Shown here one piece after another: positions 2 to 26,972 of a stretch of 64,000 bases of DNA. Position numbers and translations under genes: made by a program. Each line of letters starts with the position of its first letter. The stretch's first letter is position 1. Source of the DNA: Salegentibacter sediminis. GTDB lineage: Bacteria > Bacteroidota > Bacteroidia > Flavobacteriales > Flavobacteriaceae. The stretch covers positions 124,001-188,000 of the forward strand of contig NZ_MSJR01000001.1 of assembly GCF_002078605.1 (NCBI RefSeq), in the 5' to 3' direction. Below the pieces are notes generated by a model. The model was not told where the DNA came from. It was given only the letters and a program-made list of their open reading frames with translations, and did no database searches.

Positions 2-1222
2 ATAATCATTATTGGTGCATTATTCTTTATTTTCGGGTTTGTTACCTGGTTAAATTCAGTACTTATTCCCTTTTTAAAAACTGCCAGCCAGTTAAACAAT
101 TTTGAATCTTATCTGGTTGCTTTTGCATCTTACATTTCTTATTTTGTAATGGCTATTCCTTCTGCCTGGGTATTGAAAAAAACAGGTTTTAAAAACGGAA
201 TGTCTCTTGGTCTCGTGGTAATGGCAATTGGGGCTTTAATTTTTATACCCGCAGCTATGTCAAGAACCTATGCGCTGTTTCTTTTTGGTCTGTTCATTCA
301 GGGTACGGGACTTGCTTTGCTACAGTCTGCAGCAAATCCATATATCACCATTCTTGGACCTATTGAGAGTGCGGCGAAGCGAATTAGTATAATGGGTATT
401 TGTAATAAGGTGGCCGGGGCTTTAGCACCAATTATTTTTGGTGCAATTCTGCTGAAGAATATGGATGCAGTAGAAGCGAGACTGGAAGGTATGGGTGCAG
501 CAGCCAAAGCGGCCGAGTTAGATGAGCTCGCTTCCCTGGTGATTACACCTTATTTGGTAATGGCGGCTATTTTGGTGGGACTTTCGGTTCTTATTTATTA
601 TTCAGCATTGCCTGAAATTGAAACCGATAGCGAGGATGAAACGGTAGCTGCAGCCAATAAAAATAAAACCAGCGTACTTCAGTTTCCTAATCTATTATTG
701 GGAACCCTGGCGATGTTTCTATACGTTGGGGTGGAAGTAATTGCTGGTGATACCGTAATTAGTTACGCCCGCGATGGGCAGGGTATTTCTACAGATATCG
801 CTAAATATTTCACCACTTATACCCTAATCGCAATGATTGTGGGTTACTTAATTGGTACGGTAACCATTCCGAAATATATCAGTCAGCAAAAAGCGCTGCA
901 AATTTCAGGTATTCTTGGGATTATCCTTGGGCTTAGTGCAATTTTTACTGATGGGTATATTTCAGTGCTTTTTATATCGCTATTAGGTTTGGCAAACGCC
1001 TTGGTTTTTCCGGCTATATGGCCTTTGGCTCTTAACGGATTAGGAAGATTTACTAAAATAGGCTCTTCATTTTTGATTATGGCGCTGGCCGGAGGAGCTA
1101 TTCTGCCCCTTGTTTATGGTTATTTAGCCGATACTTTTGATACGCAATCGGCCTACTGGATCGTTATACCTAGTTACTTATATATTTGGTTCTTTGCAGC
1201 CAAAGGACATAAAATTAAATAA
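2..1222 (+). CDS. Sugar MFS transporter, FucP/GluP type (5' partial)
   Basis: The reading frame is open from the left edge, so the N-terminus lies outside the window; the first internal ATG at 149 is not the true start. The visible part is a run of hydrophobic helices beginning FFIFGFVTWLN, which is characteristic of the fucose/glucose-galactose branch of the major facilitator superfamily. It would sit in the inner membrane and import a monosaccharide by proton or sodium symport. The GH20 gene starts 11 bp after its stop and MurQ follows, so GlcNAc, MurNAc or anhydroMurNAc is the likely substrate. That assignment is inferred from context; the family itself is clear. Confidence 0.85.
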   Translation: MIIIGALFFIFGFVTWLNSVLIPFLKTASQLNNFESYLVAFASYISYFVMAIPSAWVLKKTGFKNGMSLGLVVMAIGALIFIPAAMSRTYALFLFGLFIQGTGLALLQSAANPYITILGPIESAAKRISIMGICNKVAGALAPIIFGAILLKNMDAVEARLEGMGAAAKAAELDELASLVITPYLVMAAILVGLSVLIYYSALPEIETDSEDETVAAANKNKTSVLQFPNLLLGTLAMFLYVGVEVIAGDTVISYARDGQGISTDIAKYFTTYTLIAMIVGYLIGTVTIPKYISQQKALQISGILGIILGLSAIFTDGYISVLFISLLGLANALVFPAIWPLALNGLGRFTKIGSSFLIMALAGGAILPLVYGYLADTFDTQSAYWIVIPSYLYIWFFAAKGHKIK

Positions 1223-1232
1223 AGCTTTTATT

Positions 1233-2804
1233 ATGAAAAAAACTATAATTTACTTCTTGTTTACACTGATGTTAGCGCTTCCATTTGGTAGCATAGCTCA
1301 GGAAGTTACTGCAGAAAATCCGGCAATTATTCCGCAGCCGGCAGAAATTGAATGGAAAGAGGGTGTTTTTACTCTTCCGGAAAGAACAGTGGTTTGTTAC
1401 AATTCCGAAGCGAAAGCTTCGGCTGCCTGGCTGCAACAATTGCTCAAAAATACCAATAGTCAAAGTTTCCCGATGCAGGGAGAGGATTGTCTTGGATTTT
1501 CACTTAAAATAAAGGAAAACCTGAAGGATAACCTGGGAGACGAAGGTTACAAACTTGATATCACCCATAATAAGGTAAGTCTTTTGGCGGCGACCGAAGC
1601 CGGGTTGTTTTATGCGATCCAGACCCTTAGGCAAATGTTTCCTGCCGAAATAGAAACCGGAAAGATTTCCGAAGAGATTAAATTAAAACAGGTAAGCATT
1701 ACCGATGTTCCAAAGTATGAATGGCGTGGTACTATGATCGATATTTCCAGGAGTTTCTTCGGCCCCGAATACATCAAAAAACACATAGACCGAATGGCTT
1801 TTTATAAGCTTAATCGCCTTCACCTTCATCTTACCGACGATCAGGGGTGGAGAATAGAGATCAAACAACTTCCTAAGCTTACTGAAGTAGGTAGTAAAGG
1901 AGCCGTAAAAGGTGGAAGATCCGGATTTTTAACTCAGGAAGAATATAAAGAGATCCAGGAATATGCTGCTGCCAGAAATATTATAATAATTCCCGAAATA
2001 GACATGCCGGGGCATAATTACTCTGCCCTTATGGCTTATCCTGAACTCAATTGCGACGAATTCGCCAATCTAACTCCGGCCCGGGCTACACCTCCTGCAT
2101 TATATCACGAATACAATGTTGGCTGGAGCAAGTTTTGTCTTGAGAATCCTGAAACCTACGATTTTGTAGCTACCGTAATGGGAGAAATGGCCGAAATAAC
2201 CAAAGGTCCCTGGCTCCATATTGGCGGAGATGAAATTGAAGATCCCCTTTATGAAGAATTTATGGTAAAGGCCGATTCCATCGTGAGAGGCCTGGGCAAA
2301 ACCACTATAGGATGGGAGGAAGCTACCAAGGCCGAAATAGATTCAAGTTTTATTAGTCAGCGTTGGCATGGGGAGGTAGAAAGCGTAGTAGACGTGAAGA
2401 TCATTGAGTCTATTTGCTCTAGTTTTTATTTGGACCACGCCAATGTTGAAGGCCAGGAATCAACCAATAACTGGTGTAAAGAAGATGGCGTTTCTTTAAA
2501 GAATGTATATGATTTTAAAACCAATAACCCGAATGTACTTGGAGTGGAAGCCCCTGTTTGGACAGAAATGGTGTTAAGCGATTCAGCGCTTGACGATAGA
2601 TTCTGGCCAAGAAGTATTGCTATGGCAGAAGTGGGTTGGAGTAAAACTGAAAGCCGGGAGTATCAAGATTTTATAGACCGACTTGGAAAACACGGGGAAA
2701 GACTGGATAGAATGAAGGTTAATTACTACCGAACCCCTGAAGTGAAATGGAATTCGGAAAGAAGTGACGGAGTTTTCTCTGGTTTTCTACCCTCTTCTAA
2801 ATAA
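1233..2804 (+). CDS. Beta-N-acetylhexosaminidase, GH20
   Basis: Secreted exo-hexosaminidase releasing terminal GlcNAc (or GalNAc) from glycans. The start at 1233 gives a signal peptide ending near FGSIAQ; an in-frame start further upstream would overlap the permease gene. The GH20b-like N-terminal domain spans roughly residues 30-160. The TIM barrel follows, with HLHLTDDQGWR and the catalytic Asp-Glu pair in HIGGDE (about residues 333-334), as needed for substrate-assisted catalysis. The length of 523 aa fits the family. It lies between a sugar permease and murQ, with 14 bp to the latter. In murein breakdown it could trim GlcNAc from disaccharides, but chitin- or glycan-derived substrates are also possible. 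Confidence 0.93.
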   Translation: MKKTIIYFLFTLMLALPFGSIAQEVTAENPAIIPQPAEIEWKEGVFTLPERTVVCYNSEAKASAAWLQQLLKNTNSQSFPMQGEDCLGFSLKIKENLKDNLGDEGYKLDITHNKVSLLAATEAGLFYAIQTLRQMFPAEIETGKISEEIKLKQVSITDVPKYEWRGTMIDISRSFFGPEYIKKHIDRMAFYKLNRLHLHLTDDQGWRIEIKQLPKLTEVGSKGAVKGGRSGFLTQEEYKEIQEYAAARNIIIIPEIDMPGHNYSALMAYPELNCDEFANLTPARATPPALYHEYNVGWSKFCLENPETYDFVATVMGEMAEITKGPWLHIGGDEIEDPLYEEFMVKADSIVRGLGKTTIGWEEATKAEIDSSFISQRWHGEVESVVDVKIIESICSSFYLDHANVEGQESTNNWCKEDGVSLKNVYDFKTNNPNVLGVEAPVWTEMVLSDSALDDRFWPRSIAMAEVGWSKTESREYQDFIDRLGKHGERLDRMKVNYYRTPEVKWNSERSDGVFSGFLPSSK

Positions 2805-2818
2805 ATAATGCTGTAAAA

Positions 2819-3640
2819 ATGAATAAAAATCCCGATACGGAAAGATCTTCCAACTATAACGATTTAGAAAAAATGAGCACTTCAGAATTGCTCACCAATA
2901 TTAATAAGGAGGATAAAAGTGTTCCTGATAGTGTCGGGAAGGAAATTCCCGCCATCCAAAGCCTTGTTGATGTAATCGTGTCCAAAATGGAAGACGGAGG
3001 GCGACTTTTTTATATCGGCGCAGGGACCAGTGGAAGACTCGGGGTGCTAGATGCCTCAGAATGTCCGCCAACCTTTGGCGTAACCGATGATATGGTGATT
3101 GGCCTCATTGCCGGGGGTGATACCGCCCTTAGAAATGCGGTGGAAAATGCCGAAGATGATACCGCGCAGGCCTGGAAAGATCTTCAGAAGTATAAAATTT
3201 CTTCGGCAGACGTGCTAGTGGGAATTGCCGCATCAGGTACTACGCCTTATGTTATAGGTGGAATAAAGGATGCCCGTGAGAAAGGGATAGTTACCGGTTG
3301 TATAACCTGTAGTTCCGGAAGCCCACTCGCTGAATCTTCAGAATATCCAATCGAAGTTATCACAGGTCCTGAGTTCGTTACAGGAAGTACCAGGATGAAA
3401 GCAGGCACCGCCCAAAAGTTGGTGTTGAATATGATTTCCACTTCGATTATGATCAAATTAGGTAGGGTACAAGGCAACAAAATGGTAGATATGCAGCTCT
3501 CTAATAAGAAGCTTGTTGGCCGGGGAACCAGGATGATCATGGAAGAACTTGATGTTGATGAGGCCAAAGCGGCAGAACTTTTGAAAAAGTACGGCAGTGT
3601 GCGTAAGGCAGTTAGCAATTCCAAAAATGAACTTAAATAA
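2819..3640 (+). CDS. murQ: N-acetylmuramic acid 6-phosphate etherase
   Basis: Cytoplasmic lyase-type etherase that splits MurNAc-6-P into GlcNAc-6-P and D-lactate, the committed step of MurNAc catabolism. The SIS fold is evident from FYIGAGTSGRLGVLDASE, which includes the conserved glutamate of the active site (ASE), and from the later GPEFVTGSTRMKAGTAQK segment. At 273 aa it is slightly shorter than the E. coli enzyme of about 298 aa. It is the most diagnostic gene in the region, because GlcNAc or chitin use alone does not need it. Its substrate requires a MurNAc kinase or anhMurNAc kinase, and none is visible here; one may lie left of the window. Confidence 0.96.
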   Translation: MNKNPDTERSSNYNDLEKMSTSELLTNINKEDKSVPDSVGKEIPAIQSLVDVIVSKMEDGGRLFYIGAGTSGRLGVLDASECPPTFGVTDDMVIGLIAGGDTALRNAVENAEDDTAQAWKDLQKYKISSADVLVGIAASGTTPYVIGGIKDAREKGIVTGCITCSSGSPLAESSEYPIEVITGPEFVTGSTRMKAGTAQKLVLNMISTSIMIKLGRVQGNKMVDMQLSNKKLVGRGTRMIMEELDVDEAKAAELLKKYGSVRKAVSNSKNELK

Positions 3641-3798
3641 AAATTTCATAAAAGTTAAAAAATACTAAAAAAAAATAGGATTCAAATCAAATCTTTTTAA
3701 TTAATCCAATATCTTTATAAGGAAGTTTCCACATAAATTTCAGTACTTGAATTAAATACAACTTACCACTAACAGATTTATTCACACAAATTTTAATT
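3641..3798 (+). promoter_or_regulatory. Leader region of the SusC/SusD operon
   Basis: AT-rich gap between murQ and susC. TATCTTTA at 3710-3717 matches the Bacteroidetes -7 box TAnnTTTG with one mismatch, but no TTG is correctly spaced upstream. AAATCTTTTTAA at 3689-3700 also occurs in front of the ROK regulator gene at 22668-22679. Promoter assignment is tentative. Confidence 0.3.
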
Positions 3799-6700
3799 AT
3801 GGAAAAACGATTACGAAGGCCTATTTTAATCTTACTGTGCTTTTTCTCGCTTCAGATGTGGGCGCAACAGAAAGAAGTTTCTGGCGTAGTGCAGGATGAA
3901 GAAGGAATGCCATTGCCAGGCGTTAACATTTACGTTAAAAATACTAATCGAGGCACCGTTACAGACTTTGACGGTAAATTCAGTTTATCTGTGCCCGAAA
4001 GAGAGGATACTATTCTTGTATTCTCTATGATTGGATTTACTACCCAGGAGGTACGTATTGGAGATGAAAGTACCTTTAATATTACCTTAGGAATAGATAC
4101 GCAAGGTCTTGACGAGGTAGTGGTTACCGCCCTTGGAATAAGACAGGAGAAAAAAGCCCTGGGATATAGTGTAACCGAAGTCGAAGGAGTTACCATTGCT
4201 GAAACTCAACGGGAGAATTTTGTGAATTCACTTGCAGGACGTGTCGCCGGGGTTGAGGTTAATGCAACTTCCGGACTTCCGGGGTCTTCTTCTTCTATTG
4301 TGATTAGGGGGATTAGTTCCTTAAGTGGGAATAACCAGCCGTTATTTGTGGTGGATGGTTTACCAATTAGTAACAATACTACTTCAACAGGTGTTTTTGC
4401 CTCTTCGGTAGGAGCCGGGGCAATGTCTTTTGAAAACCGTGGTGTTGACTTTACCAACCGTGCGGCCGATATTAACCCTGAAGATATTGAAAGTGTTACC
4501 GTCCTTAAGGGCCCGGAGGCTGCCGCTCTTTATGGAATCGAAGCTGCTTCGGGAGCTATCGTAATTACTACAAAAAGAGGTGCTGAAGGTAAAGGTCGTA
4601 TTGATTACAGCAATAGTTTTAGAGTTGACCGAATTGTAGAGTATCCGGAAATTCAACAAACTTATGGTCGTGGAGCTAACGGAATAACCCAGGATGCCGA
4701 TGAAAGTCTCTATTATTTTGGAGAGCCGTACCCTGAAGGAACTCAGTTCTATGATAATGTTGGAAGCTTCTTCCAGGATGCGATTACCCAACGTCATAAC
4801 CTTTCTTTTTCGGGAGGATCTGAAAAAATTCAATACCGTCTTTCGGGATCTCATACCGATTCTGAAGGTTTCATTCCAACAACCGGGCTTGAGAAATTAA
4901 ATCTTACTTCAGCTATTACGGCCGAGGTATCTGATTGGTTAAAAGCTGATGTTACTTTTGATTACACCAGATCTGATAATGATCAAACTTTTAGAGGTTC
5001 GGGTGGACCACTGCTTCACCTATTGTTGTGGCCTTCTACAGATGATGCCAGCAATTACCTAACCCCATCGGGAAACAGAAGAAATTATGCTGATTTTGCA
5101 ACTGCGGTAGAAAACCCGTTTTTCAATGTAAATAAAAATGTTTTTAATTCACTTACCGACAGATACAAACTCAACACCAGTCTTACAGCAACCGCCACCG
5201 ATTGGCTTAAGTTTGTTGGCCAGGTAGGAGTAGACTATTTTACTGAAAAAAATACCATCGTAAGGCATCCCGAATCAAATTCAGGAAGAAATTATAACGG
5301 TATTTTCGATCAGGCGCTTATTACTACCAGGAACCTAACTTTCCAGGGATACACCCAAATTACCCCTCCTGATCTTCTTGATGGAAAAATAAAAACAGAC
5401 CTTAAACTTGGTTCTGCCATTTACGATTATAATACCTTTAGTGCAGCTGCAAGCGGACAGGATTTTCAAGCGCCCGATCTTTGGTCTATAAATAATACCA
5501 GACTTGATACGCATAGAGCTTTTAATAATTTAGTGCAGCGTAGATTGGTTGGTGTATTTGGTAGCTTTAATGCAAGTTATGATAATCAACTTTTCTTAAC
5601 CTTAACCGGAAGAAATGACTGGAGTTCGACGCTGCCTAAAAAGAATAACTCCTTCTTCTATCCTTCAGCAGGATTAAGCTGGGTTTTTACCGAGTTAGCA
5701 CCATTTAAGGATATAAGCGATGTATTTTCTTACGGAAAATTAAGAGCTTCTGTAGCTCAGGTAGGAAAAGATGCCCGCCCTTATAGTATTCGTCCATTTT
5801 ACGAAAATGCTACTACCACAGGAGGCGGTTTCCGTTATGGGTTTACCGGCCCAAGCTTAAATCTCGTACCAGAGATGACCACTTCTTACGAATACGGTAT
5901 GGAACTTAAGTTCTTTAATAATCGCTTAGGTCTGGACGCTACTTATTTCAATAAAAAATCTGAAGATCAGATTGTTCAAAACCTTCGGCTGAGCTATGCC
6001 ACAGGTTTTGTATTAATGACCTTTAATGCCGGGGAAATTCAAAACGAAGGTGTTGAACTGCAGTTGAATGCAACTCCTGTTCAAACCAAAGACTTCTCCT
6101 GGGATATCCTGGCAAATTATACCAGAAACTGGAGTGAACTGGTTAGCCTGCCCGGTGATGTTGAGGAGTTTTATAATTCTGACACCTGGTTATACGGTAA
6201 CGTTCGGGGGGGAGCGAGAATTGGTGGACCTCTAACAAGTTTTACGGGCTATGACTTCCTGAAAAATGATGAAGGGGAAATGATCATTAATCCCACTAAT
6301 GGCCTTCCATTACTTGATACCAGTGAATGGGTCGTGGTGGGAGACAGGAGCCCCGATTTCACTGTTGGATTAACGAACACATTTTCTTATAAGAACCTTT
6401 CCCTTAATTTCCTTCTGGATTTTCGTGTAGGTGGAGATGTTTACAATGCAACAGAACACTACCTGACAACCCGAGGTTTAAGTAAAAGAACTTTAGATCG
6501 TGAAACCCCAAGAATTGTAGATGGAGTGTTAAGAGATGGATTGGAAAATACTGATAATCCAACTCAGAATAATATACCAATTAATCTCAACACCAACTCC
6601 ACGTACTGGGGATCTATTTATCCATACCAAAGTTTTATAGAGAAAGATGTAAATTGGGTAAGACTTAGAGATGTAACCCTTAATTACTACCTGCCACAAT

Positions 6701-6906
6701 CCTTCCTTGATAGAACCAACGCTGTACAAACTGCAAGCGTTTTCTTAACCGGAACAGATCTCTTCCTGTTTACTAACTATTCAGGACTTGATCCTGTAGC
6801 AAATGGTAACTCCGCAGCGGTAGGAGGTGCCGGTGGTACTGGATTTGACTATGGTAACTTCCCGTTACCACGAGGAATTAACTTTGGAGTTAGAGTAGGA
6901 CTATAA
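3799..6906 (+). CDS. SusC/RagA-family TonB-linked outer membrane transporter
   Basis: Outer membrane channel for energised import of oligomers. It has a signal peptide ending at LQMWAQ and a carboxypeptidase-like regulatory domain at about residues 25-100 with the usual GVVQDEEGMPLPGVNIYVK motif. The SusC signature LDEVVVTALGI, a plug domain at about residues 120-230 and a 22-strand barrel follow. The 1035 aa length is normal. The SusD gene starts 8 bp after its stop. Neighbouring murQ, amidase, NamZ and NlpC/P60 genes suggest that it takes up peptidoglycan fragments. The sequence alone gives no substrate. No ECF sigma or anti-sigma gene is attached, unlike many such pairs. Confidence 0.95.
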   Translation: MEKRLRRPILILLCFFSLQMWAQQKEVSGVVQDEEGMPLPGVNIYVKNTNRGTVTDFDGKFSLSVPEREDTILVFSMIGFTTQEVRIGDESTFNITLGIDTQGLDEVVVTALGIRQEKKALGYSVTEVEGVTIAETQRENFVNSLAGRVAGVEVNATSGLPGSSSSIVIRGISSLSGNNQPLFVVDGLPISNNTTSTGVFASSVGAGAMSFENRGVDFTNRAADINPEDIESVTVLKGPEAAALYGIEAASGAIVITTKRGAEGKGRIDYSNSFRVDRIVEYPEIQQTYGRGANGITQDADESLYYFGEPYPEGTQFYDNVGSFFQDAITQRHNLSFSGGSEKIQYRLSGSHTDSEGFIPTTGLEKLNLTSAITAEVSDWLKADVTFDYTRSDNDQTFRGSGGPLLHLLLWPSTDDASNYLTPSGNRRNYADFATAVENPFFNVNKNVFNSLTDRYKLNTSLTATATDWLKFVGQVGVDYFTEKNTIVRHPESNSGRNYNGIFDQALITTRNLTFQGYTQITPPDLLDGKIKTDLKLGSAIYDYNTFSAAASGQDFQAPDLWSINNTRLDTHRAFNNLVQRRLVGVFGSFNASYDNQLFLTLTGRNDWSSTLPKKNNSFFYPSAGLSWVFTELAPFKDISDVFSYGKLRASVAQVGKDARPYSIRPFYENATTTGGGFRYGFTGPSLNLVPEMTTSYEYGMELKFFNNRLGLDATYFNKKSEDQIVQNLRLSYATGFVLMTFNAGEIQNEGVELQLNATPVQTKDFSWDILANYTRNWSELVSLPGDVEEFYNSDTWLYGNVRGGARIGGPLTSFTGYDFLKNDEGEMIINPTNGLPLLDTSEWVVVGDRSPDFTVGLTNTFSYKNLSLNFLLDFRVGGDVYNATEHYLTTRGLSKRTLDRETPRIVDGVLRDGLENTDNPTQNNIPINLNTNSTYWGSIYPYQSFIEKDVNWVRLRDVTLNYYLPQSFLDRTNAVQTASVFLTGTDLFLFTNYSGLDPVANGNSAAVGGAGGTGFDYGNFPLPRGINFGVRVGL

Positions 6907-6914
6907 AAAAATTA

Positions 6915-8525
6915 ATGATGAAAAGAATATTAAAAATATGTATAGTAATTGCGGGCCTCTTTAGTTTTTCGGGCTGTGAGGACTACCTTGATGTTAATAC
7001 GAACCCAAACGGTCCAGATGCATTATTGCAACCGGAACTTTTCCTGCCTCAAATTCAGTCTGAATTAGCTGTGGCTGTTCAATGGGATGGTAGGTTTACC
7101 GGATTTTATACCCAAAACTGGATATATGCTTCCGGTGAGGCTTATTCTCTAAACCTGCACTCAAACCCTCTTTCAGATTTTTATGCTCAATTATGGAGAG
7201 CAGTTTATTGGAGTATGGGTTATAACCTTTCTGATATGATTGAAAGTGGTGAACTCAATGAAAAATATGATTTCGTGGGAGTTGGTAAGATACTTAGAGC
7301 CTACGGTTGGCAAATGCTTACCGATTATCACGGGCCTATAATTGTTACCGAGGCTTTTGACTCAGAAAAAAGGGTTTTTAATTATGATGAGCAACAAGTG
7401 GCTTATGAGGAAGTAAGAAGATTGCTTTTAGAAGGGATTGAAGCTCTTGAAAGAACCGACGGGCTAGGACCGGATGAATCGGGACTTCGCGAAGCCGATC
7501 TTATTTACCAGGGAGACCGCGATAAGTGGAAGAAATTTGCCTATGGATTATTAGCTATCAATGCTCATCGTCTAACTAACAAGAGCAGCTATGATCCTCA
7601 GGAAGTAATTGATTATGTAGATCAGGCTTTAGGCGGAAATCAGGATGATGCTCTTATCCGGTTTGAAGGAACGGTAAGTTCAAACACGAATTTTTTCGGC
7701 CCACGAAGGGGAAATATAGGTTATTACCGCCAGAGTAAATTTATTACCGGACTTCTTGACGGAACAAATCCAGTTTTCCAGGATAGTGACCTGGATGGCG
7801 CAGATCCTGTTTATGAGGGGCAACACGTGCACGATCCACGAATCACTTCTATGCTAGCGCCTTCTCCCGATGGGGAATATAGAGGAATAGATCCCGAAAC
7901 GGGAATTAACGAATATGAAGCTGAAGAAGTACCAAAGAATTTCTGGAATGAAGAAGGCTACGTTGGAAGTAATCCAAGCCCACAAATTTATTTCTTTAAT
8001 AATGATGCAGATTTCCCGTTAATGACCTTTGCGCAGCTGCAGTTTATTAAAGCTGAAGCCGCTTGGATAGCAGGAAACGAATCTCTTGCTCTGGATGCCT
8101 ATAACACCGGGGTAGAAGCCCATATGGATTTCGCGAGAACTTATGCTCCTGATGCTGATCTTTTTGACCAGCGAAGAGCCTTGTATGAAACCAACAAGGA
8201 GTTATTCCCGGCTACTGCTGATGAACTTAACCTTTCTAAGATTATGCTTCAGAAATTTATTGCAACCTGGGGATGGGGATTCTTTGAATCCTGGTCTGAT
8301 ATGAGAAGATACCACTATGACCTGGATGTTGCTCCTGAAAATAAAGTTTATGTTGGTTTTGAACTACCTGAAACTTTTGCACCGGCTAATAACGAGAATC
8401 CTGCTTATAGAGCTCGCCCCAGGTTTAATTCAGAATATATGTGGAACCAGGAAGCCTTAGAAGCTCTGGATGCCTTTGAAGAAGATTATCATACTTACGA
8501 AACCTGGTTTAGTAAATCTGAATAA
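6915..8525 (+). CDS. SusD/RagB-family surface lipoprotein
   Basis: Surface-exposed glycan-binding lid that pairs with the SusC channel encoded just upstream. The lipoprotein signal ends at LFSFSGCEDYLD, placing the lipidated Cys near residue 21 and keeping the conserved CEDYLDVNTNPN start of the SusD-like group. TPR-like helices follow, and LMTFAQLQFIKAEAA near residue 375 is typical of SusD. The start could be 6915 or the adjacent ATG at 6918. It belongs to the RagB/SusD-like_2 type often seen with non-starch substrates. Ligand specificity cannot be read from the sequence; context suggests amino-sugar polymers. Confidence 0.93.
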   Translation: MMKRILKICIVIAGLFSFSGCEDYLDVNTNPNGPDALLQPELFLPQIQSELAVAVQWDGRFTGFYTQNWIYASGEAYSLNLHSNPLSDFYAQLWRAVYWSMGYNLSDMIESGELNEKYDFVGVGKILRAYGWQMLTDYHGPIIVTEAFDSEKRVFNYDEQQVAYEEVRRLLLEGIEALERTDGLGPDESGLREADLIYQGDRDKWKKFAYGLLAINAHRLTNKSSYDPQEVIDYVDQALGGNQDDALIRFEGTVSSNTNFFGPRRGNIGYYRQSKFITGLLDGTNPVFQDSDLDGADPVYEGQHVHDPRITSMLAPSPDGEYRGIDPETGINEYEAEEVPKNFWNEEGYVGSNPSPQIYFFNNDADFPLMTFAQLQFIKAEAAWIAGNESLALDAYNTGVEAHMDFARTYAPDADLFDQRRALYETNKELFPATADELNLSKIMLQKFIATWGWGFFESWSDMRRYHYDLDVAPENKVYVGFELPETFAPANNENPAYRARPRFNSEYMWNQEALEALDAFEEDYHTYETWFSKSE

Positions 8526-8536
8526 AAATTAAAATT

Positions 8537-9298: not shown

Positions 9299-9317
9299 TG
9301 ATTATCAATCATTCAAT

Positions 9318-16673: not shown

Positions 16674-16678
16674 GAATT

Positions 16679-18442: not shown

Positions 18443-18452
18443 AAAGCCGCAG

Positions 18453-19391: not shown

Positions 19392-19408
19392 AGCAATAAG
19401 GCTTAATG

Positions 19409-21328
19409 TTATAATTTCCAGCGTACAAAAGCTTCCATAGCCTCATAATTTGCGAGGCCAAGTTTATCGTAGGCTTCCGCAGTTTCACGGTTTCGCTCTT
19501 CTGCACGTACCCAGAACTCTCTTTCATCATCGCCGGGAAATACAGGACGATCTTTTTGAGATTGATGCTGAAATATGGCTTTTCTTTTTCGTTGTACTTC
19601 CTGTGGAGAAAGCGGCACAGCCATTTCGATCTCGTGGATCTCGAATTCCTGCCATGCGCCACGATACATCCATAACCAGCAGTCTTTGGTCCATTCTTCG
19701 GTCTTGCGGAGCCTGGTAAGTGCCTCGAGGATTATTCGGAAACAAACGATATGGGTTCCGTGGGGATCGGCGAAATCACCTGCGGCAAAAACCTGATGTG
19801 GTTTTATTTGCTGAAGCAATTCCATAGTAAGTTTCACATCTTTTTCGGTAACGGGATTTTTCACCCTTTTTCCGGTTTCATAAAATGGCAGGGCCATAAA
19901 ATGAATGTTTTTGTCTTTCAAGCCGGCAAATCGCGCTCCTGCAATCGCCTCAGATTTCCTGATGAAGGCTTTTACATCCTGGATTTCCTGAAGATCAATA
20001 TCGTTTGGTTGTTTGTCTTCAAGAGAACGGCGCATTTTCTCATAGGTAGCTTCTAATTTTTCAACATTTTCGCCACGGCTTCGGTTAAAGTCTATAGCGA
20101 ATTCTACGTATCGAAGCACATCCGTATCCCAAACAGCCGTGTTTCCTGAGGTTTGATAGGCTACATGCACCTCATGCCCCTGATCTACCAGGCGTATAAA
20201 AGTACCTCCCATAGAGATCACATCATCATCTGGGTGCGGCGAGAAAATAAGCGAACGTTTTTGGGCCGGTTCTTTTCTTTCAGGCCTTTGGGTATCATCG
20301 GCATTTGGTTTTCCCCCGGGCCATCCTGTAATGCTATGCTGTAGCTGATTGAATACATCAATATTGATGTTGTAAGCAGGTCCAAAATCGGTGGCGAGCT
20401 GGGCCATCCCGTTATTGTTGTAATCTTCGTCGGTAAGTTTAAGGATGGGCTTTTTAACTTCTGAAGAAAGCCAAATAACTGCCTTTTTGATAAGTTGTTT
20501 ATCCCATACGCAGTCTTTTACCAACCATGGGGTATTGAAACGGGTGAGTTCAGAAGCGGCATCTTCATCTAAAATAAACTCTACATTTTCTGAAAGTTGA
20601 AGGTAAGTGGCAGGAACATTCCCAGAAATTTCTCCTTCAACGGCTTTCCTGATAATCGGTGCTTTTTTGCGACTCCAGGCCATCAGGATGATTTCGCGGG
20701 CCTTAAAGATTGTTCCAATACCCATAGTAATTGCCTTGGTGGGTACATTTTCTTTTCCTCCAAAATCACGGGAGGCATCGCGACGGGTAAGATCGTCTAA
20801 AGTGACCAGGCGGGTTCCTGAGTTTGGGGCCGATCCCGGTTCGTTGAAACCGATGTGCCCGGTTCTACCAATCCCTAATACCTGAAGGTCTAGACCACCA
20901 AGTTCTCCAATCTTATTTTCATAGGCTATACAGTAATCGGCAATATCTTCTTTTGCCAGAGTACCATCCGGAATGTGAATATTCTCTCGTTTTATATCGA
21001 TGTGCCCAAAGAGATTTTCATCCATAAAACGAACATAACTTTGTTTAGCATCGGGTTGCATCGGGTAATACTCGTCCAGGTTGAAGGTAATCACATTCTG
21101 AAAACTCAGCCCTTCTTCTTTGTGTAGGCGCACCAGTTCTTCATACACCTCAATTGGGGTAGCACCTGTTGCAAGTCCCAACACGGCATTTTCACCTTTT
21201 TCCTGCTTTTTTTTAATAAGTGTTGCTATTCTTGCTGCTACAGTTTTTGAAGCTATGTGCTCATCTGGATAAACGCTAACCGGTAGCTTTTCGAAACGTG
21301 TTTCTTCTAAGAGGTTTAATCTGGCCAT
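19409..21328 (-). CDS. nagB: Glucosamine-6-phosphate deaminase fused to PIG-L/LmbE deacetylase domain
   Basis: Bifunctional-looking cytoplasmic protein of 639 aa. Residues about 15-270 are NagB-like, with GLATGATPIEVY, TFNLDEYYP and GHIGFNEPGS; they would convert GlcN-6-P to fructose-6-P and ammonia. Residues about 355-600 are PIG-L/LmbE-like with the metal motif SPHPDDDVISMGG (365-369) and DPHGTH, a fold that removes acetyl groups from GlcNAc derivatives. In the NagB part the E. coli catalytic Asp141 position is Thr (GIGRTGH). This long form occurs in other Bacteroidetes. No separate nagA deacetylase is visible, so the tail may replace it, but neither activity is proven here. Confidence 0.85.
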   Translation of the reverse strand: MARLNLLEETRFEKLPVSVYPDEHIASKTVAARIATLIKKKQEKGENAVLGLATGATPIEVYEELVRLHKEEGLSFQNVITFNLDEYYPMQPDAKQSYVRFMDENLFGHIDIKRENIHIPDGTLAKEDIADYCIAYENKIGELGGLDLQVLGIGRTGHIGFNEPGSAPNSGTRLVTLDDLTRRDASRDFGGKENVPTKAITMGIGTIFKAREIILMAWSRKKAPIIRKAVEGEISGNVPATYLQLSENVEFILDEDAASELTRFNTPWLVKDCVWDKQLIKKAVIWLSSEVKKPILKLTDEDYNNNGMAQLATDFGPAYNINIDVFNQLQHSITGWPGGKPNADDTQRPERKEPAQKRSLIFSPHPDDDVISMGGTFIRLVDQGHEVHVAYQTSGNTAVWDTDVLRYVEFAIDFNRSRGENVEKLEATYEKMRRSLEDKQPNDIDLQEIQDVKAFIRKSEAIAGARFAGLKDKNIHFMALPFYETGKRVKNPVTEKDVKLTMELLQQIKPHQVFAAGDFADPHGTHIVCFRIILEALTRLRKTEEWTKDCWLWMYRGAWQEFEIHEIEMAVPLSPQEVQRKRKAIFQHQSQKDRPVFPGDDEREFWVRAEERNRETAEAYDKLGLANYEAMEAFVRWKL

Positions 21329-21351
21329 AATTTAGTGCTAATTCGGAATTT

Positions 21352-22623
21352 TTAATTGATGTAAGATTTAACCAGGGCCACCTGGTCTTTAAATATATCG
21401 TCCATGACTGCGATGGTACCCCCAAACAAACTTGAATTAGACCCTAATTCTGATAGTTCGATCTTAGTTCGTTCTTTGAGCTGCATCATGCAGTAGGTGT
21501 TCATTGATTGGTGGATTGGGGTAGTGATAAACTGTTTGGCTTCGGCGATCTTACCCTCCAGGATAACCAGTTCTGGATTAAATATTTGAATAAGAATGGC
21601 AATTCCTTTTCCAAGCTTGATTCCAATCTCCGAAAGTACATTAATAGCAAACTGATCCCCTTTGTTGGCAGCTTCTATAATCACTTCGGGTTCTAATTTG
21701 TCCATCTCTTTCTGGCTCAAATTATTTAATACTGAAGTCTGTCCCGCTTTAAGTCCTTCTTTGGCTTTTCTAACCAGAGCGAGCCCCGAGGCTTCTGTTT
21801 CCAGGCAACCTCTTTTTCCGCAGTGGCAAAGCAAGCCATCTTCGGTCATTGGGATATGACCGAATTCCCCGGCGAAGCCAGATTCCCCCGAATGCATTTT
21901 ACCACCCATAATAATTCCCAATCCAATGCCCCAGTCCATAGAAATTACAAGCACGTTGCTTTTATCGCGAGCCAACCCAAAACGGAATTCGGCTAAACAG
22001 GCACTTTTTGCATCATTAAGGATCACCACAGATTTTTTGAATTTCTTTTCAAATCTACCTTTTAACGATTCGGGTTCCTGTTCGCTTAAATAATAGGTGA
22101 AGTTCTTACCTGCCTCGGCAGAAACAAGCCCAGGCATACTAATAGCCACACCCATTAAATCACTCATTTTTATTTTGGCCGATTTAAGCAGCTTCTGGGA
22201 CTGCTCAAAAAGTAAATCTACAATATTGGAATCGGGAGAAATTTCCCTGGTTAAAACACTTTCTTTAACAATGCTGTGATTATTGTCTATGACTGCCAGT
22301 TTTATTCTGAAACGTTCAATGTGGATGCTTAGCACAAAAAAAGAATGTTCCTGCATCCCATAAAGGTCGGGTTTGCGTCCGCCTTCAGATTTTCCCCTCC
22401 CGGTTTTAGACACAATTCCATCCTCTATCATCTGGTTTAAAAGAGACATGGAGGTAGGTAAACTCACATTAAACCTGCTGCATATCTCGGCGTTGGAAGT
22501 GTTTCCGTTTAAAAACAGATGTTTTACGATTTTTAGCTTTTGCAAATATTTCTTGCGTTCTACATTGCTGATATGAGCAAGTTTTTCTTCATCTAAGAGA
22601 AAATCCTGTAGTTTTTTTGGCAT
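21352..22623 (-). CDS. ROK-family transcriptional regulator (NagC/Mlc-like)
   Basis: 423 aa, longer than ROK kinases because of an N-terminal winged helix-turn-helix (about residues 28-85, with NTSNAEICSRFNVSLPTSMS). The ROK domain includes the zinc motif CHCGKRGCLE (Cys266, 268, 273) and a degenerate ATP loop SMDWGIGLG. Such proteins repress amino-sugar genes and release DNA on binding GlcNAc-6-P or a free sugar. It heads the nagB-amidase-namZ operon (23 bp to nagB) and lies divergent from nagX-GH3 across a 214-bp gap, the likely site of autoregulation. A kinase function is unlikely given the HTH, although ROK proteins include sugar kinases. Confidence 0.9.
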   Translation of the reverse strand: MPKKLQDFLLDEEKLAHISNVERKKYLQKLKIVKHLFLNGNTSNAEICSRFNVSLPTSMSLLNQMIEDGIVSKTGRGKSEGGRKPDLYGMQEHSFFVLSIHIERFRIKLAVIDNNHSIVKESVLTREISPDSNIVDLLFEQSQKLLKSAKIKMSDLMGVAISMPGLVSAEAGKNFTYYLSEQEPESLKGRFEKKFKKSVVILNDAKSACLAEFRFGLARDKSNVLVISMDWGIGLGIIMGGKMHSGESGFAGEFGHIPMTEDGLLCHCGKRGCLETEASGLALVRKAKEGLKAGQTSVLNNLSQKEMDKLEPEVIIEAANKGDQFAINVLSEIGIKLGKGIAILIQIFNPELVILEGKIAEAKQFITTPIHQSMNTYCMMQLKERTKIELSELGSNSSLFGGTIAVMDDIFKDQVALVKSYIN

Positions 22624-22837
22624 GTGTGGTTTTTTTGGTTTGAATTAAAGAACTATCGCTAAATTTAAAATCTTTTTAAAATTAAGCCTCTAATTCAGAA
22701 TTAAAAATAGATAAAAAAAATATTCTGAGAAATACTTTTTCAATTTTTTTATAAAAGATCATTTATTTAAATGAAATTTATATTTTTAAGTATTCAAATT
22801 TTAATGACGTCTTAAGTCTTTTAAAAAAAATAGATCT
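22624..22837. promoter_or_regulatory. Divergent promoter region between ROK regulator and nagX-like gene
   Basis: 214 bp of very AT-rich DNA. An imperfect palindrome lies around 22662-22684 (TTTAAAA-TCT-TTTTAAA core) and shares AAATCTTTTTAA with the susC leader. No consensus TAnnTTTG box is obvious for nagX. It is a reasonable place for the ROK operator, but the motif is low-complexity. Confidence 0.3.
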
Positions 22838-23983
22838 ATGTCCCCGAAATCTGTCGTAACTCTCCCAAAATCCCAGCGCTATTTCGCACTGGATATTCTT
22901 CGCGGAATGACCATCGCCCTAATGATCCTGGTAAACACCCCGGGCAGCTGGTCTCATATTTATGCACCATTCAGGCACGCCGCCTGGCACGGGTTTACCC
23001 CAACCGATCTGGTTTTTCCGGCTTTCCTTTTTGTAGTAGGAAATGCGATGAGTTTTAGCCTTAAAAAGTATGAAGCAAAATCGGAACAGGATTTCCTCAA
23101 AAAAGTATTTAAACGCAGTCTGCTAATTTTTGTGATAGGCCTGTTTTTAAGCGCATTTCCCTTTGTATATCGGGCAGGAGGGGAACTTGTTTTAAAAGAC
23201 CTTAGCAATATGCGAATTATGGGAGTGCTGCAACGAATTGCTCTTTGTTATTTATTCGCATCGCTTATAATTCATTATTTTAAGCTTAAAAAATCCCTGA
23301 TCATTGCCGCGATAATCCTTTTGGCTTATTGGGCGATAATGTGGTTTTTTGGCGATGCTCCCGATCCTTATGGCCTTAAGACTAATGCGGCCCTTAAATT
23401 TGACAGGATAATCTTCCCGGAAGAAAATCTCTGGAAAGGTTTTGGCTTCCCCTTTGATCCCGAAGGGCTTTTAAGCACCCTGCCGGCGATAGTAAACGTG
23501 ATTTTTGGGTATGCCGCCGGGGTATTTATTCAGAAGTCGGGAAATATTATGAAGACCGTTTGGAAACTGGCAATTGCCGCGTTAGTCTTTATAGGAATTG
23601 CATTGACCTGGGATATTTATTTCCCAATTAATAAGGGAATCTGGACCAGTAGTTTTGTAATGTACAGCACGGGTTGGACGCTGCTCCTGCTTTCGATATT
23701 TATCGCGATTATTGAGGTTGCCGGATTTAAAAAATGGACCTATTTCTTTGAAGCCTTCGGAAAAAACCCCCTTTTTATATATGTAATGTCTGGGGTGGTG
23801 GTAATGCTAATGAGTGTAATTTACGTTAACGGCCGAGCCCTGAAGCCTTTGTTATACGAAAAATTTTACCTTAGCTGGCTTAACGATTATAATGCATCCT
23901 TGTTATTTGCCATTAGTTATATGGTGCTTATGTGGTTGCTTGGATACTGGCTGGATAAGCGAAAAATATATATTAAGGTGTAA
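22838..23983 (+). CDS. NagX/HGSNAT-like membrane acetyltransferase (DUF5009)
   Basis: Polytopic inner-membrane protein with about 10 hydrophobic segments. The N-terminal motif RYFALDILRGMTIALMILVN and the HAAWHGFTPTDLVFPAFLF segment are typical of the heparan-alpha-glucosaminide N-acetyltransferase/NagX group, where a conserved histidine carries acetyl across the membrane. In this setting it could acetylate glucosamine residues on the outer side, making de-N-acetylated murein or chitin sugars acceptable to NagZ or GH20, or it could transport. It begins the divergent pair with the GH3 gene 49 bp downstream. The family is sure; the substrate is inferred. Confidence 0.8.
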   Translation: MSPKSVVTLPKSQRYFALDILRGMTIALMILVNTPGSWSHIYAPFRHAAWHGFTPTDLVFPAFLFVVGNAMSFSLKKYEAKSEQDFLKKVFKRSLLIFVIGLFLSAFPFVYRAGGELVLKDLSNMRIMGVLQRIALCYLFASLIIHYFKLKKSLIIAAIILLAYWAIMWFFGDAPDPYGLKTNAALKFDRIIFPEENLWKGFGFPFDPEGLLSTLPAIVNVIFGYAAGVFIQKSGNIMKTVWKLAIAALVFIGIALTWDIYFPINKGIWTSSFVMYSTGWTLLLLSIFIAIIEVAGFKKWTYFFEAFGKNPLFIYVMSGVVVMLMSVIYVNGRALKPLLYEKFYLSWLNDYNASLLFAISYMVLMWLLGYWLDKRKIYIKV

Positions 23984-24032
23984 ACCTGGATCTGTAATTT
24001 AAAATTGAACTTTCAAAAAACATACTGCTTAG

Positions 24033-26972
24033 ATGAAAATTAAAATCTCTCTCCTAATAATTGCAGCCTTCCTCCTGGGATCAAATATCCGGGCGCAGGA
24101 GGAAAAACCGCCATTTCTTAAATATCAGAACAGCAAGTGGGTTGATTCCATTATGGAAAACCTCACTCCTAATGAACGCATCGCCCAACTCATTATGGTT
24201 GCCGCTTATTCCAACCGTGGGCCTGAACATAAACAGGAGATTCTCAAACTAATAAGGGAACAAAAAATAGGTGGACTCATTTTTTTCCAGGGAGATGCAA
24301 GAACCCAGGTCAATCTTATGAATGATTACCAGTTGGTTTCTGAAGTTCCTCTGCTGGGAGCCATAGATGCTGAATGGGGCCTGGGAATGAGACTTGATAA
24401 TACCATAAGTTATCCTTTCCAGATGGCACTTGGTGCTATTCAAAACGATAGTTTGATTTACGAGCTTGGGCAGGAAGTGGCCCGGCAGATTAAGCGAAGC
24501 GGACTGCACCTCAATTTTGCTCCCGTGGTAGATGTGAATAATAATCCTGATAACCCTGTGATCAATTTTAGATCTTTTGGGGAAAATAAGGAAAATGTTT
24601 CCCGTAAAGGGATCGCTTATATGCAGGGAATGCAGGATGCTAATTTGCTCACTACAGCAAAACACTTTCCCGGCCACGGAGATACCGATACCGATTCTCA
24701 TTATGCACTTCCGCAGATAAATCACGCTTTTAATAGGCTGGATTCCCTGGAAATGCATCCCTTTAAAAAACTTATAGACGCCGGAATTGGCGGGGTTATG
24801 GTTGCACACCTCGATATACCAGCCCTAGACTCAACAGGGGTGCCTTCAACTTTATCTAAACCCATAATCACCGGAATTCTCAAGGAACGATTAGGCTTTG
24901 AAGGCCTGATCGTTACCGACGCGATGAACATGAAAGGAGTTACCGAAGGTAATGAGCCCGGGGTGGTAGATAAGGATGCTATTCTGGCTGGAAATGATCT
25001 GCTGGAATTTACCGAAGATGTGCCCAAAGCCATTGCCGAAATAAGAAAAGCCATAAATCAGGGGCTGATCACCCAGGCTGAAATCGATAAGCGGGTAAGA
25101 AAATTGCTTGCCGTAAAACAGTGGGTAGGCCTGGATCAATACAAAGCAATCCCGCTCAAGAATATAGATGAAGAGATCACCACCCTTGAAGCCGAATGGT
25201 TAAACCGAAAACTGGTTGAAGCCTCGCTGACCGTTCTTAGGAATGAAAATGATATTTTGCCGGTAAAAGAACTTGAGAAGGTGAAGATCGCTTCGGTTTC
25301 CTTTGGTGCTAAAAAAGAAAGCGTTTTCCAGGAAAGTCTGAGCCTTTATACCGATGTGAAACATTTCCAGGTGGGAATGGGTGCTAAAACTTCAGAAGTA
25401 AAGAAGATCTTTGAAGAGCTAAAGACCTTTGATCTAATAATTGCCGGGATTCACGACGATAGCCGTTTTCCCCGTAATACGATAAAATTTTCAAATGCGG
25501 TTCAAAATTTAATGGGGGAGATTTTTGAAGAACAGAACAGCATCGTCGCATACTTTAAAAACCCCTATTCTCTGGATAAACTTAAAGGGGTTGAAAATGC
25601 TTCAGGATTAATTCTTACTTACCAGGATAATGATATTAGCCAGGAACTTGCGGCGCAGCTTATTTTTGGCGGCGTGGGAGCCAATGGTCAATTACCGGTA
25701 AGTGTGGGTAAAAAGTTCAAATCGGGGGAAGGCCTCGAGGTAGAAGGGGGATTACGCCTTAAATACACCAGGCCTGAAGATGCCGGGATGAATTCTGAAA
25801 CCCTGTATAATGGGATAGATTCCTTAATGCAGCAGGCTATGGATATGAAAGCCATACCAGGCGGCCAGATCCTGGTGGCCAGAAAGGGGAAAGTGGTTTT
25901 TCATAAAGCCTACGGCTTGCACGATTACAGTGACACTGTAAAGGTTAAAAAAACCGATTTGTACGATCTTGCCTCGGTGACGAAGGTATCTTCAGCATTA
26001 CCTGCACTTATGAAACTTGCTGATGAAGGGAAATTTAATCTCGATGCGGGGATAGATACCTATCTGCCCTATTTCAGAAATTCGAATAAGGCGGGAGTAC
26101 CTTTCAGGGAAATCCTGGCTCACCAGGCTCGTTTTAAGCCCTGGATTCCTTACTGGAAAAATACCCTGCGCAAGAACGGGAGCTATAGATGGAATACTTT
26201 TAAAAAGGATTCTTCAGCCAGGTACCCGGTGAAAGTGAGTGAAAACTTATGGTTGCACCGCAAATATCAAAAGAAGATGTTCAGGGCGATAAAAAAATCA
26301 GAGCTCGAAAAGGAAGCAAAATATAAATACTCAGGCCTGGCCTTTTATCTCCTGCCAGATATAGTAGAAAACATTACCGGAGAGGATTTCAGAAGTTATA
26401 TAAATGAAAATTTTTATGATAAACTGGGGGCCACCACTTTAACCTATAAGCCTTTAGAAGAATTTAATTCAGATAGAATCGTGCCCACTGAGCACGATTA
26501 TTTTTTCAGGCATAAACCTATACACGGAATGGTTCACGATGAGGGGGCGGTGATGATGGGTGGAATTTCGGCCAATGCCGGACTTTTTTCTACGGCTAAT
26601 GATCTTGCCAAACTCATGCAGATGTATTTGAATATGGGGGAATATGCCGGAGTGCGTTATATTGAGGAAGACACCTTTAAAGAATGGACCAAAGCGCAGT
26701 TTCCTGAAAATGATAATCACCGGGGCCTGGGCTTCGATAAACCCTATCTCGAATATAAAGGAGAAAGTAGCAATACTGCAAAAGATGCCAGTAAGGCGAG
26801 CTTTGGCCACACCGGTTTTACAGGGATAATGGCCTGGATGGATCCGGAAGAAGACCTGCTTTATCTTTTTCTTTCTAACCGTGTTTTGCCTTCAAGAAGC
26901 AATACCAGATTGTACGCTTTAAATACCAGAACCAATATTCAACAGGTACTTTATGATGCAATAGAGAAATAA
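24033..26972 (+). CDS. NagZ-like GH3 beta-N-acetylglucosaminidase fused to a serine beta-lactamase-type domain
   Basis: Secreted (signal ending SNIRAQ), 979 aa. The GH3 barrel covers about residues 35-370 with the NagZ loop KHFPGHGDTDTDSH (210-223, His/Asp acid-base dyad) and nucleophile Asp296 in TDAMNMKG. A GH3 C-terminal domain follows to about 580. Residues about 590-979 form a class C beta-lactamase/PBP-like domain with SVTK (Ser648, Lys651), a YSG motif and HTGFTG. GH3 removes GlcNAc from GlcNAc-MurNAc units. The serine domain may be a D-Ala carboxypeptidase, esterase or amidohydrolase. This fusion is seen in Bacteroidetes, where it is often split or annotated only as GH3. Confidence 0.92.
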   Translation: MKIKISLLIIAAFLLGSNIRAQEEKPPFLKYQNSKWVDSIMENLTPNERIAQLIMVAAYSNRGPEHKQEILKLIREQKIGGLIFFQGDARTQVNLMNDYQLVSEVPLLGAIDAEWGLGMRLDNTISYPFQMALGAIQNDSLIYELGQEVARQIKRSGLHLNFAPVVDVNNNPDNPVINFRSFGENKENVSRKGIAYMQGMQDANLLTTAKHFPGHGDTDTDSHYALPQINHAFNRLDSLEMHPFKKLIDAGIGGVMVAHLDIPALDSTGVPSTLSKPIITGILKERLGFEGLIVTDAMNMKGVTEGNEPGVVDKDAILAGNDLLEFTEDVPKAIAEIRKAINQGLITQAEIDKRVRKLLAVKQWVGLDQYKAIPLKNIDEEITTLEAEWLNRKLVEASLTVLRNENDILPVKELEKVKIASVSFGAKKESVFQESLSLYTDVKHFQVGMGAKTSEVKKIFEELKTFDLIIAGIHDDSRFPRNTIKFSNAVQNLMGEIFEEQNSIVAYFKNPYSLDKLKGVENASGLILTYQDNDISQELAAQLIFGGVGANGQLPVSVGKKFKSGEGLEVEGGLRLKYTRPEDAGMNSETLYNGIDSLMQQAMDMKAIPGGQILVARKGKVVFHKAYGLHDYSDTVKVKKTDLYDLASVTKVSSALPALMKLADEGKFNLDAGIDTYLPYFRNSNKAGVPFREILAHQARFKPWIPYWKNTLRKNGSYRWNTFKKDSSARYPVKVSENLWLHRKYQKKMFRAIKKSELEKEAKYKYSGLAFYLLPDIVENITGEDFRSYINENFYDKLGATTLTYKPLEEFNSDRIVPTEHDYFFRHKPIHGMVHDEGAVMMGGISANAGLFSTANDLAKLMQMYLNMGEYAGVRYIEEDTFKEWTKAQFPENDNHRGLGFDKPYLEYKGESSNTAKDASKASFGHTGFTGIMAWMDPEEDLLYLFLSNRVLPSRSNTRLYALNTRTNIQQVLYDAIEK

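Follow-up and report, generated by a model that had tools for sequence, protein, structure and literature searches.

A putative locus for uptake and catabolism of peptidoglycan fragments, with a variable SusC/SusD site, in Salegentibacter sediminis

Gene content of the locus

We have analyzed a stretch of 64,000 nucleotides (hereafter the window) from Salegentibacter sediminis, corresponding to positions 124001-188000 of contig C1 (NZ_MSJR01000001.1, assembly GCF_002078605.1), in a genome of 3.26 Mb and 22 contigs rated 100% complete. Pfam and NCBIfam scans delimited at its beginning a locus of 17 genes that probably serves the uptake and catabolism of peptidoglycan fragments (Table 1). The genes are arranged in three strand runs, one on the plus strand from the NagP-like transporter to the NlpC/P60 lipoprotein, one on the minus strand from the ROK protein to the amidase::NamZ fusion, and a last one, again on the plus strand, with the NagX-like gene and the GH3::beta-lactamase fusion. 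The start of the first gene lies outside the window, 44 bases ahead of it (C1:123957, position 13957 of L003). YebC and LepA mark the boundary before the locus, and OMP_b-brl_3, DusB and a LolC/E-type permease (Pfam/NCBIfam) the one after it.

A first-pass annotation of this DNA had counted 15 genes, overlooking the GH9, the DUF4397 lipoprotein and the NagX-like membrane protein. The families that it had named were recovered by Pfam/NCBIfam, namely MurQ, Amidase_2::NamZ, the AmpD-like amidase, GH20, GHL10, NlpC/P60, an epimerase-like MR_MLE member, NagB::PIG-L, the major facilitator superfamily (MFS) and sodium:solute symporter (SSF) transporters, SusC, SusD and HTH-ROK. Its NagZ-type GH3 does carry the KHFPGHGD motif but continues into a domain similar to class C beta-lactamases and penicillin-binding proteins (PBP). 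We looked for the catalytic motifs characteristic of each family, and they were present in GH20, MurQ, GHL10, GH9, the epimerase, NlpC, both amidases, NamZ, both domains of the GH3::beta-lactamase and NagX; in NagB::PIG-L the patterns tried matched nothing, the family match being nonetheless full length. Using a simple heuristic (a hydrophobic N-terminus or a lipobox) rather than SignalP, ten proteins look exported, SusC, SusD, DUF4397 and seven enzymes (GH20, GHL10, GH9, NlpC, amidase::NamZ, AmpD and GH3::beta-lactamase), and not the at least eight enzymes claimed before. The features of a Sus-like polysaccharide utilization locus (PUL) that are present are the adjacent SusC and SusD and the linked exported GH20, GH9, GH3, GHL10 and NamZ; the linked regulator is an HTH-ROK protein and not one of the hybrid two-component or extracytoplasmic function types.

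Table 1. Genes of the locus, with positions in the window and the evidence for each assignment (MurNAc, N-acetylmuramic acid; GlcN, glucosamine; pLDDT, predicted local distance difference test).
Feature	Position	Strand	Evidence
NagP-like MFS transporter	2..1222 (true start 44 bases earlier)	+	NCBIfam gluP above cut-off; NagP_SO3503 E 8e-121, below cut-off
GH20 beta-N-acetylhexosaminidase, Sec-type N-terminus	1233..2804	+	Pfam E 1.3e-80; GGDE motif
MurQ, MurNAc-6-phosphate etherase, locus-type clade	2819..3640	+	TIGR00274 320 bits (cut-off 302); tree
SusC/RagA TonB-dependent outer-membrane transporter	3799..6906	+	TIGR04056 692 bits
SusD-like lipoprotein	6915..8525	+	PF12771 E 6e-40; lipobox FSGC
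DUF4397 lipoprotein of the SusC/SusD cassette, predicted two Ig-like beta sandwiches	8537..9298	+	PF14344 E 1.9e-15; model pLDDT 86; fold matches
GHL10 glycosidase-like lipoprotein, Cwp19/DigH type	9399..11000	+	PF02638 E 8.6e-63; PDB 5oq2 E 2.7e-72
Sodium:solute symporter (SSF)	11010..12458	+	PF00474; adjoins MurQ in many relatives
GH9 glycosidase, Sec-type N-terminus	12468..14279	+	PF00759 E 1e-75, CelD_N; WHDAGD and TNEPT motifs
L-Ala-D/L-Glu epimerase-like (MR_MLE)	14290..15318	+	Pfam/NCBIfam; best PDB 3iji E 5.6e-63
SH3-NlpC/P60 lipoprotein, YkfC type	15391..16623	+	Pfam; PDB 3pvq 'dipeptidyl-peptidase VI' E 2.4e-85; DCSGF/H motifs
Amidase_2 (PGRP-like) fused to NamZ exo-muramidase, Sec-type N-terminus	16679..18442	-	Pfam
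AmpD-like amidase lipoprotein	18453..19391	-	PF01510 E 6.3e-33; lipobox LASC
NagB glucosamine-6-phosphate deaminase fused to PIG-L-type deacetylase	19409..21328	-	NF002557 1068 bits
HTH-ROK protein, NagC-like, putative regulator	21352..22623	-	PF00480, HTH_24; only ROK found in genome
NagX-family membrane protein (GlcN N-acetyltransferase or MurT-type MurNAc transporter)	22838..23983	+	NF046061 E 5e-55, below cut-off; HAAWHGFTPTDL motif
GH3 with NagZ motif fused to serine beta-lactamase/PBP-like domain, Sec-type N-terminus	24033..26972	+	Pfam/NCBIfam; motifs; RmNag3 architecture

Enzyme identities and predicted pathway

MurQ, the two amidases, NamZ, the YkfC-like NlpC/P60, the dipeptide epimerase and the Cwp19-like GHL10 make up a gene set that points to peptidoglycan. 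The best reading, to which we give a probability of about 0.76 from sequence and gene context, is that of a locus by which fragments of peptidoglycan are taken up and catabolized. What the sequence shows is the families of the products with their catalytic motifs, probable export signals, the synteny, and the recurrence of such loci in other genomes. The earlier proposal of cell-wall utilization holds for the gene set, peptidoglycan being for SusC/SusD a presumed cargo.

The best PDB matches of the NlpC/P60 protein, which extend over both the SH3 and the catalytic part, were two Bacteroides entries named 'dipeptidyl-peptidase VI', 3pvq and 3npf; we take these to be YkfC-type endopeptidases that cut between gamma-D-Glu and the diamino acid and require a free L-Ala. 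Its gene adjoins that of the dipeptide epimerase, as in the YkfB/YkfC branch, so that the two would be a YkfC/YkfB pair trimming freed stem peptides and not opening cross-links. For GHL10 the closest PDB entry was Cwp19 of Clostridioides difficile, presumably a lytic enzyme active on peptidoglycan. The amidase::NamZ fusion was found in three of 60 genomes, that of S. sediminis included. The NamZ half is 65% identical to the NamZ of Pontibacter cellulosilyticus (L185) and 61% to the one of Cesiribacter (L217), and its matches in relatives outside the three fusion genomes are 33-53% identical. The model of the DUF4397 lipoprotein matched the tandem immunoglobulin (Ig)-like extracellular domains of PepT1 and PepT2 (TM about 0.5-0.6), a fold match that tells of an Ig-like protein only. 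SusD found weak SusD homologs only in the PDB, with no ligand hint, and the structure model of GH9 (mean pLDDT 51, from 6 sequences) was set aside.

In the pathway that we propose, SusC, SusD and the DUF4397 protein would import soluble fragments across the outer membrane. The two amidases would then free the stem peptides from MurNAc in the envelope, GHL10 would cut the denuded glycan, the GH3/NagZ-like enzyme and GH20 would release N-acetylglucosamine (GlcNAc), and NamZ would release MurNAc; GH9 could remove non-acetylated glucosamine or another end sugar, and the beta-lactamase-like domain of GH3 may trim D-Ala. From the free stem peptides the YkfC-like NlpC/P60 would release L-Ala-gamma-D-Glu, and the epimerase would form L-Ala-L-Glu. 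GlcNAc would be transported by NagP and MurNAc by the SSF and/or the NagX-family protein, which alternatively could acetylate glucosamine. The sugars would be phosphorylated by unlinked kinases (AnmK on C20 and a BadF-type kinase on C12), MurQ would split D-lactate from MurNAc-6-phosphate, NagB::PIG-L would form fructose-6-phosphate, and the ROK protein would be the regulator.

Conservation in Salegentibacter and other Bacteroidota

Thirteen genes of the locus were found in the same order in five congeners (G001, G012, G003, G004 and G014), with OMP_b-brl_3 and DusB alongside. Of the genomes compared, G001 alone also has GH9, and the NamZ half recurs in none but G001 and G005. G005 has the right half of the locus, and no match to the left half appears in the 19.9 kb beyond it. 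As separate observations, an erythromycin-esterase-family gene (L039:11967-13271) lies in G005 between AmpD and amidase::NamZ, and four congeners have an amidase alone at the position of the fusion. A genome of another genus, G021, has the series NagP, MurQ, GHL10, epimerase, NlpC, GH3::beta-lactamase and OMP, preceded by YebC and LepA as recognized by eye. In Arenibacter (L210 and L215) a relative of the SSF was seen beside OMP_b-brl_3, DusB and a LolC/E-type gene, i.e., at the site of the window, with the other locus genes absent. An AT-rich stretch is conserved in the gap between ROK and nagX in the window and the congeners, and no operator common to this gap and to the regions upstream of nagP and susC could be distinguished there from the AT-rich background.

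Outside the genus, a large part of these genes recurs in Pontibacter (L185, L188 and L191) and Cesiribacter (L217). Pontibacter ruber (L188) and Pontibacter sp. (L191) have SusD, DUF4397, GHL10, GH9, a PGRP-like amidase, MurQ, SSF, NagX, GH3::beta-lactamase and AmpD, L188 also the start of NagB::PIG-L, and their stretches gave no match to NamZ, epimerase, NlpC, GH20, NagP or ROK. In Echinicola (L154), AmpD, a BadF-type kinase, MurQ, GHL10 and SSF lie in a row. The nearest named relatives of the SSF are those of S. salinarum (85%), S. tibetensis (84%) and Christiangramia gaetbulicola (82%). The SSF has 562 relatives, from which we retained 80 named loci, and 13 of these have a MurQ match; this low fraction, and the presence of SSF in two of the 20 control stretches described below, made us reject the symporter as a MurNAc-specific marker. 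MurQ presence was likewise discarded as a marker of feeding, matches being found in 243 of 249 genomes of the family, some at E about 1e-4 that are not true MurQ.

A tree of 46 MurQ rows (midpoint-rooted with no independent root, the bootstrap not fully settled) separated 23 locus-type from 23 lone rows, the dividing branches having values of 100/99. L091, first labelled lone, groups with the locus-type rows and contains pieces of SusC. We compared the 20 'top' loci, those with the highest MurQ identity to that of the window, with 20 'spread' loci picked by hand from about 150 places (interior contig positions were favoured, several are cut by contig ends, and one, L125, turned out to be locus-type) and with 20 control stretches 60 kb away from MurQ in the genomes of the spread set. 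The fetched stretches of the top loci, a selected set whose counts are not frequencies, contained SSF in 11, SusC in 13, GH3 in 10, NamZ in 9, SusD in 7, NagX in 7 and NagP in 5. The figures for the spread loci were SSF 2, SusC 4, GH3 1 and zero for NamZ, SusD, NagX and NagP, and for the controls SSF 2, SusC 2, epimerase 1 and zero for the remaining locus genes. Given the 13-gene synteny in five congeners and these near-empty controls, the locus is more than a chance assemblage.

Neighbours were also counted within about 10 kb (10.5 kb) of MurQ in 23 locus-type loci (22 tree rows plus L244, which came from a SusD search), 12 of the 13 MurQ-bearing named loci (L148, on a short contig and from the genus of L147, was omitted) and 23 lone loci. 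In that order the counts were SSF 18/12/1, SusC 19/4/3, SusD 9/3/0, GH3 12/5/0, NamZ 10/2/0, GHL10 8/9/0, NagX 7/4/0, NagP 10/1/0, GH20 8/2/0, epimerase 7/1/0, D-2-hydroxyacid dehydrogenase 7/4/0, AmpD 0/2/0 and PGRP-like amidase 0/3/0. The 12/12 for SSF is due to the origin of the named group in an SSF-based scan, and the scarcity of AmpD and PGRP-like amidase is due in part to their lying further from MurQ in the congeners. The D-2-hydroxyacid dehydrogenase, a FAD/Fe-S protein of GlcD-YdiJ type, scores below the NCBIfam cut-offs, and the D-lactate formed by MurQ would be a plausible substrate; S. sediminis has a 61% homolog on C17, unlinked to the locus. The combination of genes had been called unusual, a description that our search of conserved neighbourhoods (MurQ, SusC/SusD, NamZ and other locus genes) does not confirm, as loci of this kind turned up repeatedly both within the family and in Cytophagales.

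Alternative explanations

Several findings weigh against the peptidoglycan reading, among them the selected nature of the top-20 counts, and we bring them together here with the explanations that they could support. The largest group concerns the importer. The SusC/SusD site between MurQ and GHL10 is variable among the congeners. In G001 the pair is absent despite the synteny, and a ROK kinase-like gene and a second GH20 are found at the site; in four others SusC is only 25-39% identical (25% in G012, G003 and G014, with a neighbour that is SusD-like by eye and a DeoR regulator, Pfam-confirmed in L041; 39% in G004, with SusD at 28%). No SusC/SusD match was present in the 20 kb seen of G021. 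Searching 395 genomes, we found 12 others with a SusD at E<=1e-60, of which only two (L244 and L251) have MurQ, NamZ or GHL10 within 20 kb, and in eight of the 12, distant SusD relatives, none of the tested peptidoglycan or amino-sugar enzymes is linked. Two further distant relatives have AnmK at the edge of the stretch (L240) and a GH20 (L242). In several of the loci L240-L250 we observed a self-standing module of DeoR, SusC, SusD and a small lipoprotein without glycosidases, with DeoR and DUF4397 Pfam-confirmed only in the stretches scanned. Since the cassette is absent or divergent in congeners and distant SusD relatives are mostly unlinked, the substrate of the importer can only be presumed, and the enzymes could serve peptidoglycan while SusC/SusD/DUF4397 is an interchangeable insertion importing something else. 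We consider this unlikely, because the nearest SusD relatives seen (75% in L097 of G147, 56% in L188 and 54% in L191) all lie in loci with MurQ, in three other genomes that belong to two lineages, and because MurQ is accompanied by some SusC in G444, in Salegentibacter relatives and in many members of the family (19/23). Judged from gene context, this linkage supports a peptidoglycan role for the close SusD relatives only.

The genome has no true MurQ other than that of the locus, which must therefore also serve any recycling, contrary to the earlier statement that the enzymes are not meant for it. The locus could then be a cluster for recycling the cell's own wall, with SusC/SusD recapturing fragments lost outside, which would agree with the core being kept without the pair in G001. 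Acidic residues after the lipobox cysteine are the basis of a sorting rule for lipoproteins; GHL10 and AmpD are without them and may face the periplasm, as recycling enzymes could. However, family members usually have a lone MurQ without such neighbours, as in the 23 lone loci, and the locus-type MurQ forms a separate clade. In addition, SusC/SusD is of the nutrient-import type, and NagP, NagX, GH20, GH9, NagB::PIG-L and, in relatives, the D-2-hydroxyacid dehydrogenase are catabolic, all of which makes pure recycling in our view rather improbable.

No GH23, GH24, GH25 or GH73 was matched among the 17 products, and the relatives of GH9 in the PDB are mainly cellulases. In four relatives, all of them MurQ-bearing loci, GH9 occurs together with a polysaccharide deacetylase, as a fusion in G027 (L101:5125-7638, minus strand) and with a deacetylase frame directly after it in L188, L191 and L205. 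The locus of S. sediminis has no deacetylase of this family, only the cytosolic-looking PIG-L domain. By family, GH9, deacetylase and NagX suggest a branch of deacetylation, glucosamine release and re-acetylation, which fits N-deacetylated peptidoglycan and would fit chitin too. The locus might thus be one for chitin, chitosan or another amino-sugar glycan in which the peptidoglycan genes are passengers, and a GH18 occurs in one related locus (L102). This we find very improbable, since no GH18 chitinase was matched in the own genome (GH19 was not searched), and there is no role on chitin for MurQ, NamZ, the two amidases, the YkfC-like peptidase, the epimerase and GHL10, which were counted as the constant core (the NamZ half only in G001 and G005). 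The GH18 gene of L102 (13269-14732) has a type IX secretion tail and lies inside a MurQ-SSF-NamZ-SusC locus.

The peptidoglycan reading also has a kinase gap. The route had been described as near-complete, and no match to a MurNAc, anhydroMurNAc or free-standing GlcNAc kinase exists among the 17 products. We considered the ROK protein as the missing kinase and rejected it (HTH present, DxGGT motif absent). The AnmK of the genome is on C20, unlinked to the locus; going by its family, it would close the gap if GHL10 makes anhydro ends. The sole BadF-type kinase found, on C12 beside a gapA-like gene, is unlinked as well, and its closest PDB entries include the MurNAc kinases of Tannerella forsythia. 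In MurK, Ser133-Pro134-Leu135 are reported to make room for the lactyl group (passage of PMC10465942). The C12 kinase has His-Ser-Leu at these positions (the residue mapping is ours), which argues against MurNAc as its substrate; it may act on GlcNAc instead, in which case no clear kinase would be left for free MurNAc (the genome was not searched for AmgK). Among 19 kinase-centred loci from the phylum, MurQ is beside the kinase in five, and AnmK had no match. An alanine racemase gene lies in the window at 54231-55337, outside the locus.

The MurNAc carrier in the locus may be the SSF or the NagX-like protein. For the NagX family, a passage of PMC9007349 proposes from fitness data a role as glucosamine transacetylase and describes it as distantly related to the MurNAc transporter MurT of T. 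forsythia, which a passage of PMC5790795 places in the sodium symporter superfamily. In L290 and L291 we found MurQ and NamZ next to a NagX-family gene and a BadF kinase that has the Ser-Pro-Leu motif of MurK, an arrangement that favours MurT as a NagX relative over a sodium symporter.

Significance

Peptidoglycan is abundant in necromass, and its utilization loci in Bacteroidota are hardly described beyond one T. forsythia operon. Tentatively, and with more doubt than confidence, the loci found here might be widespread undescribed peptidoglycan-utilization loci of Bacteroidota with their own MurQ lineage, an enzyme core that keeps its chromosomal site in the host genus while SusC/SusD is swapped, and a GH9/deacetylase/NagX branch for deacetylated wall sugars. 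If so, strains may differ in the kind of wall fragment that they select through their swapped SusC/SusD, GH9 would gain a peptidoglycan role, and a large bacterial group would feed on walls with enzymes overlooked by screens for GH23/24/25/73. Feeding would then be distinguishable from recycling by simple genomic markers, namely the site at which SusC/SusD is exchanged and the split of MurQ into two lineages.

Comparison with known systems

The closest described system is the ampG-ybbC-murTKQ operon of T. forsythia (Tanf_08345-08385), which, according to passages of PMC5388701, PMC5790795 and PMC7670621, is a single transcript in an organism shown to grow on environmental muropeptides. Both are clusters of Bacteroidota with MurQ and NamZ (YbbC), and T. 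forsythia has also a MurNAc transporter. Unlike that operon, the S. sediminis locus has no AmpG (its MFS protein is of the GluP/NagP type, and the rest of the genome was not searched for AmpG) and no linked MurK or other kinase, and it adds SusC/SusD, seven exported enzymes, NagB::PIG-L, the epimerase/YkfC branch and a ROK protein. The same logic is found in Bacillus subtilis, with NagZ-AmiE-NamZ-MurQ and ykfABCD (YkfB the epimerase, YkfC the endopeptidase), although in a Gram positive with import by the phosphotransferase system and no SusC/SusD.

The use of MurNAc by other bacteria was predicted before from MurQ and the GlcNAc pathway (passage of PMC5507952). The parts, the enzymes and the logic are each known singly; in the passages of the open-licence literature at hand we found no description of a peptidoglycan locus with SusC/SusD. 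With the Shewanella-type nag regulon (NagP, NagX, NagB, NagR; passages of PMC9007349) the locus shares NagP-like, NagX-like and NagB-type functions for GlcNAc and glucosamine; it differs in the added peptidoglycan enzymes and in that NagK and NagA were not found in it (the genome was not searched for NagA). RmNag3 of Rhodothermus marinus has the same architecture of GH3 with a C-terminal beta-lactamase domain, its neighbours, as described in a passage of PMC6987092, not being a peptidoglycan locus. GH23, GH24, GH25 and GH73 are under-represented in PULs yet present in several (passage of PMC6499787); a locus without them, such as this one, would be missed by screens based on those families. 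Like the Sus-like PULs, the locus has a SusC/SusD pair, glycosidases and a regulator, and what sets it apart from them is its predicted target, peptidoglycan.

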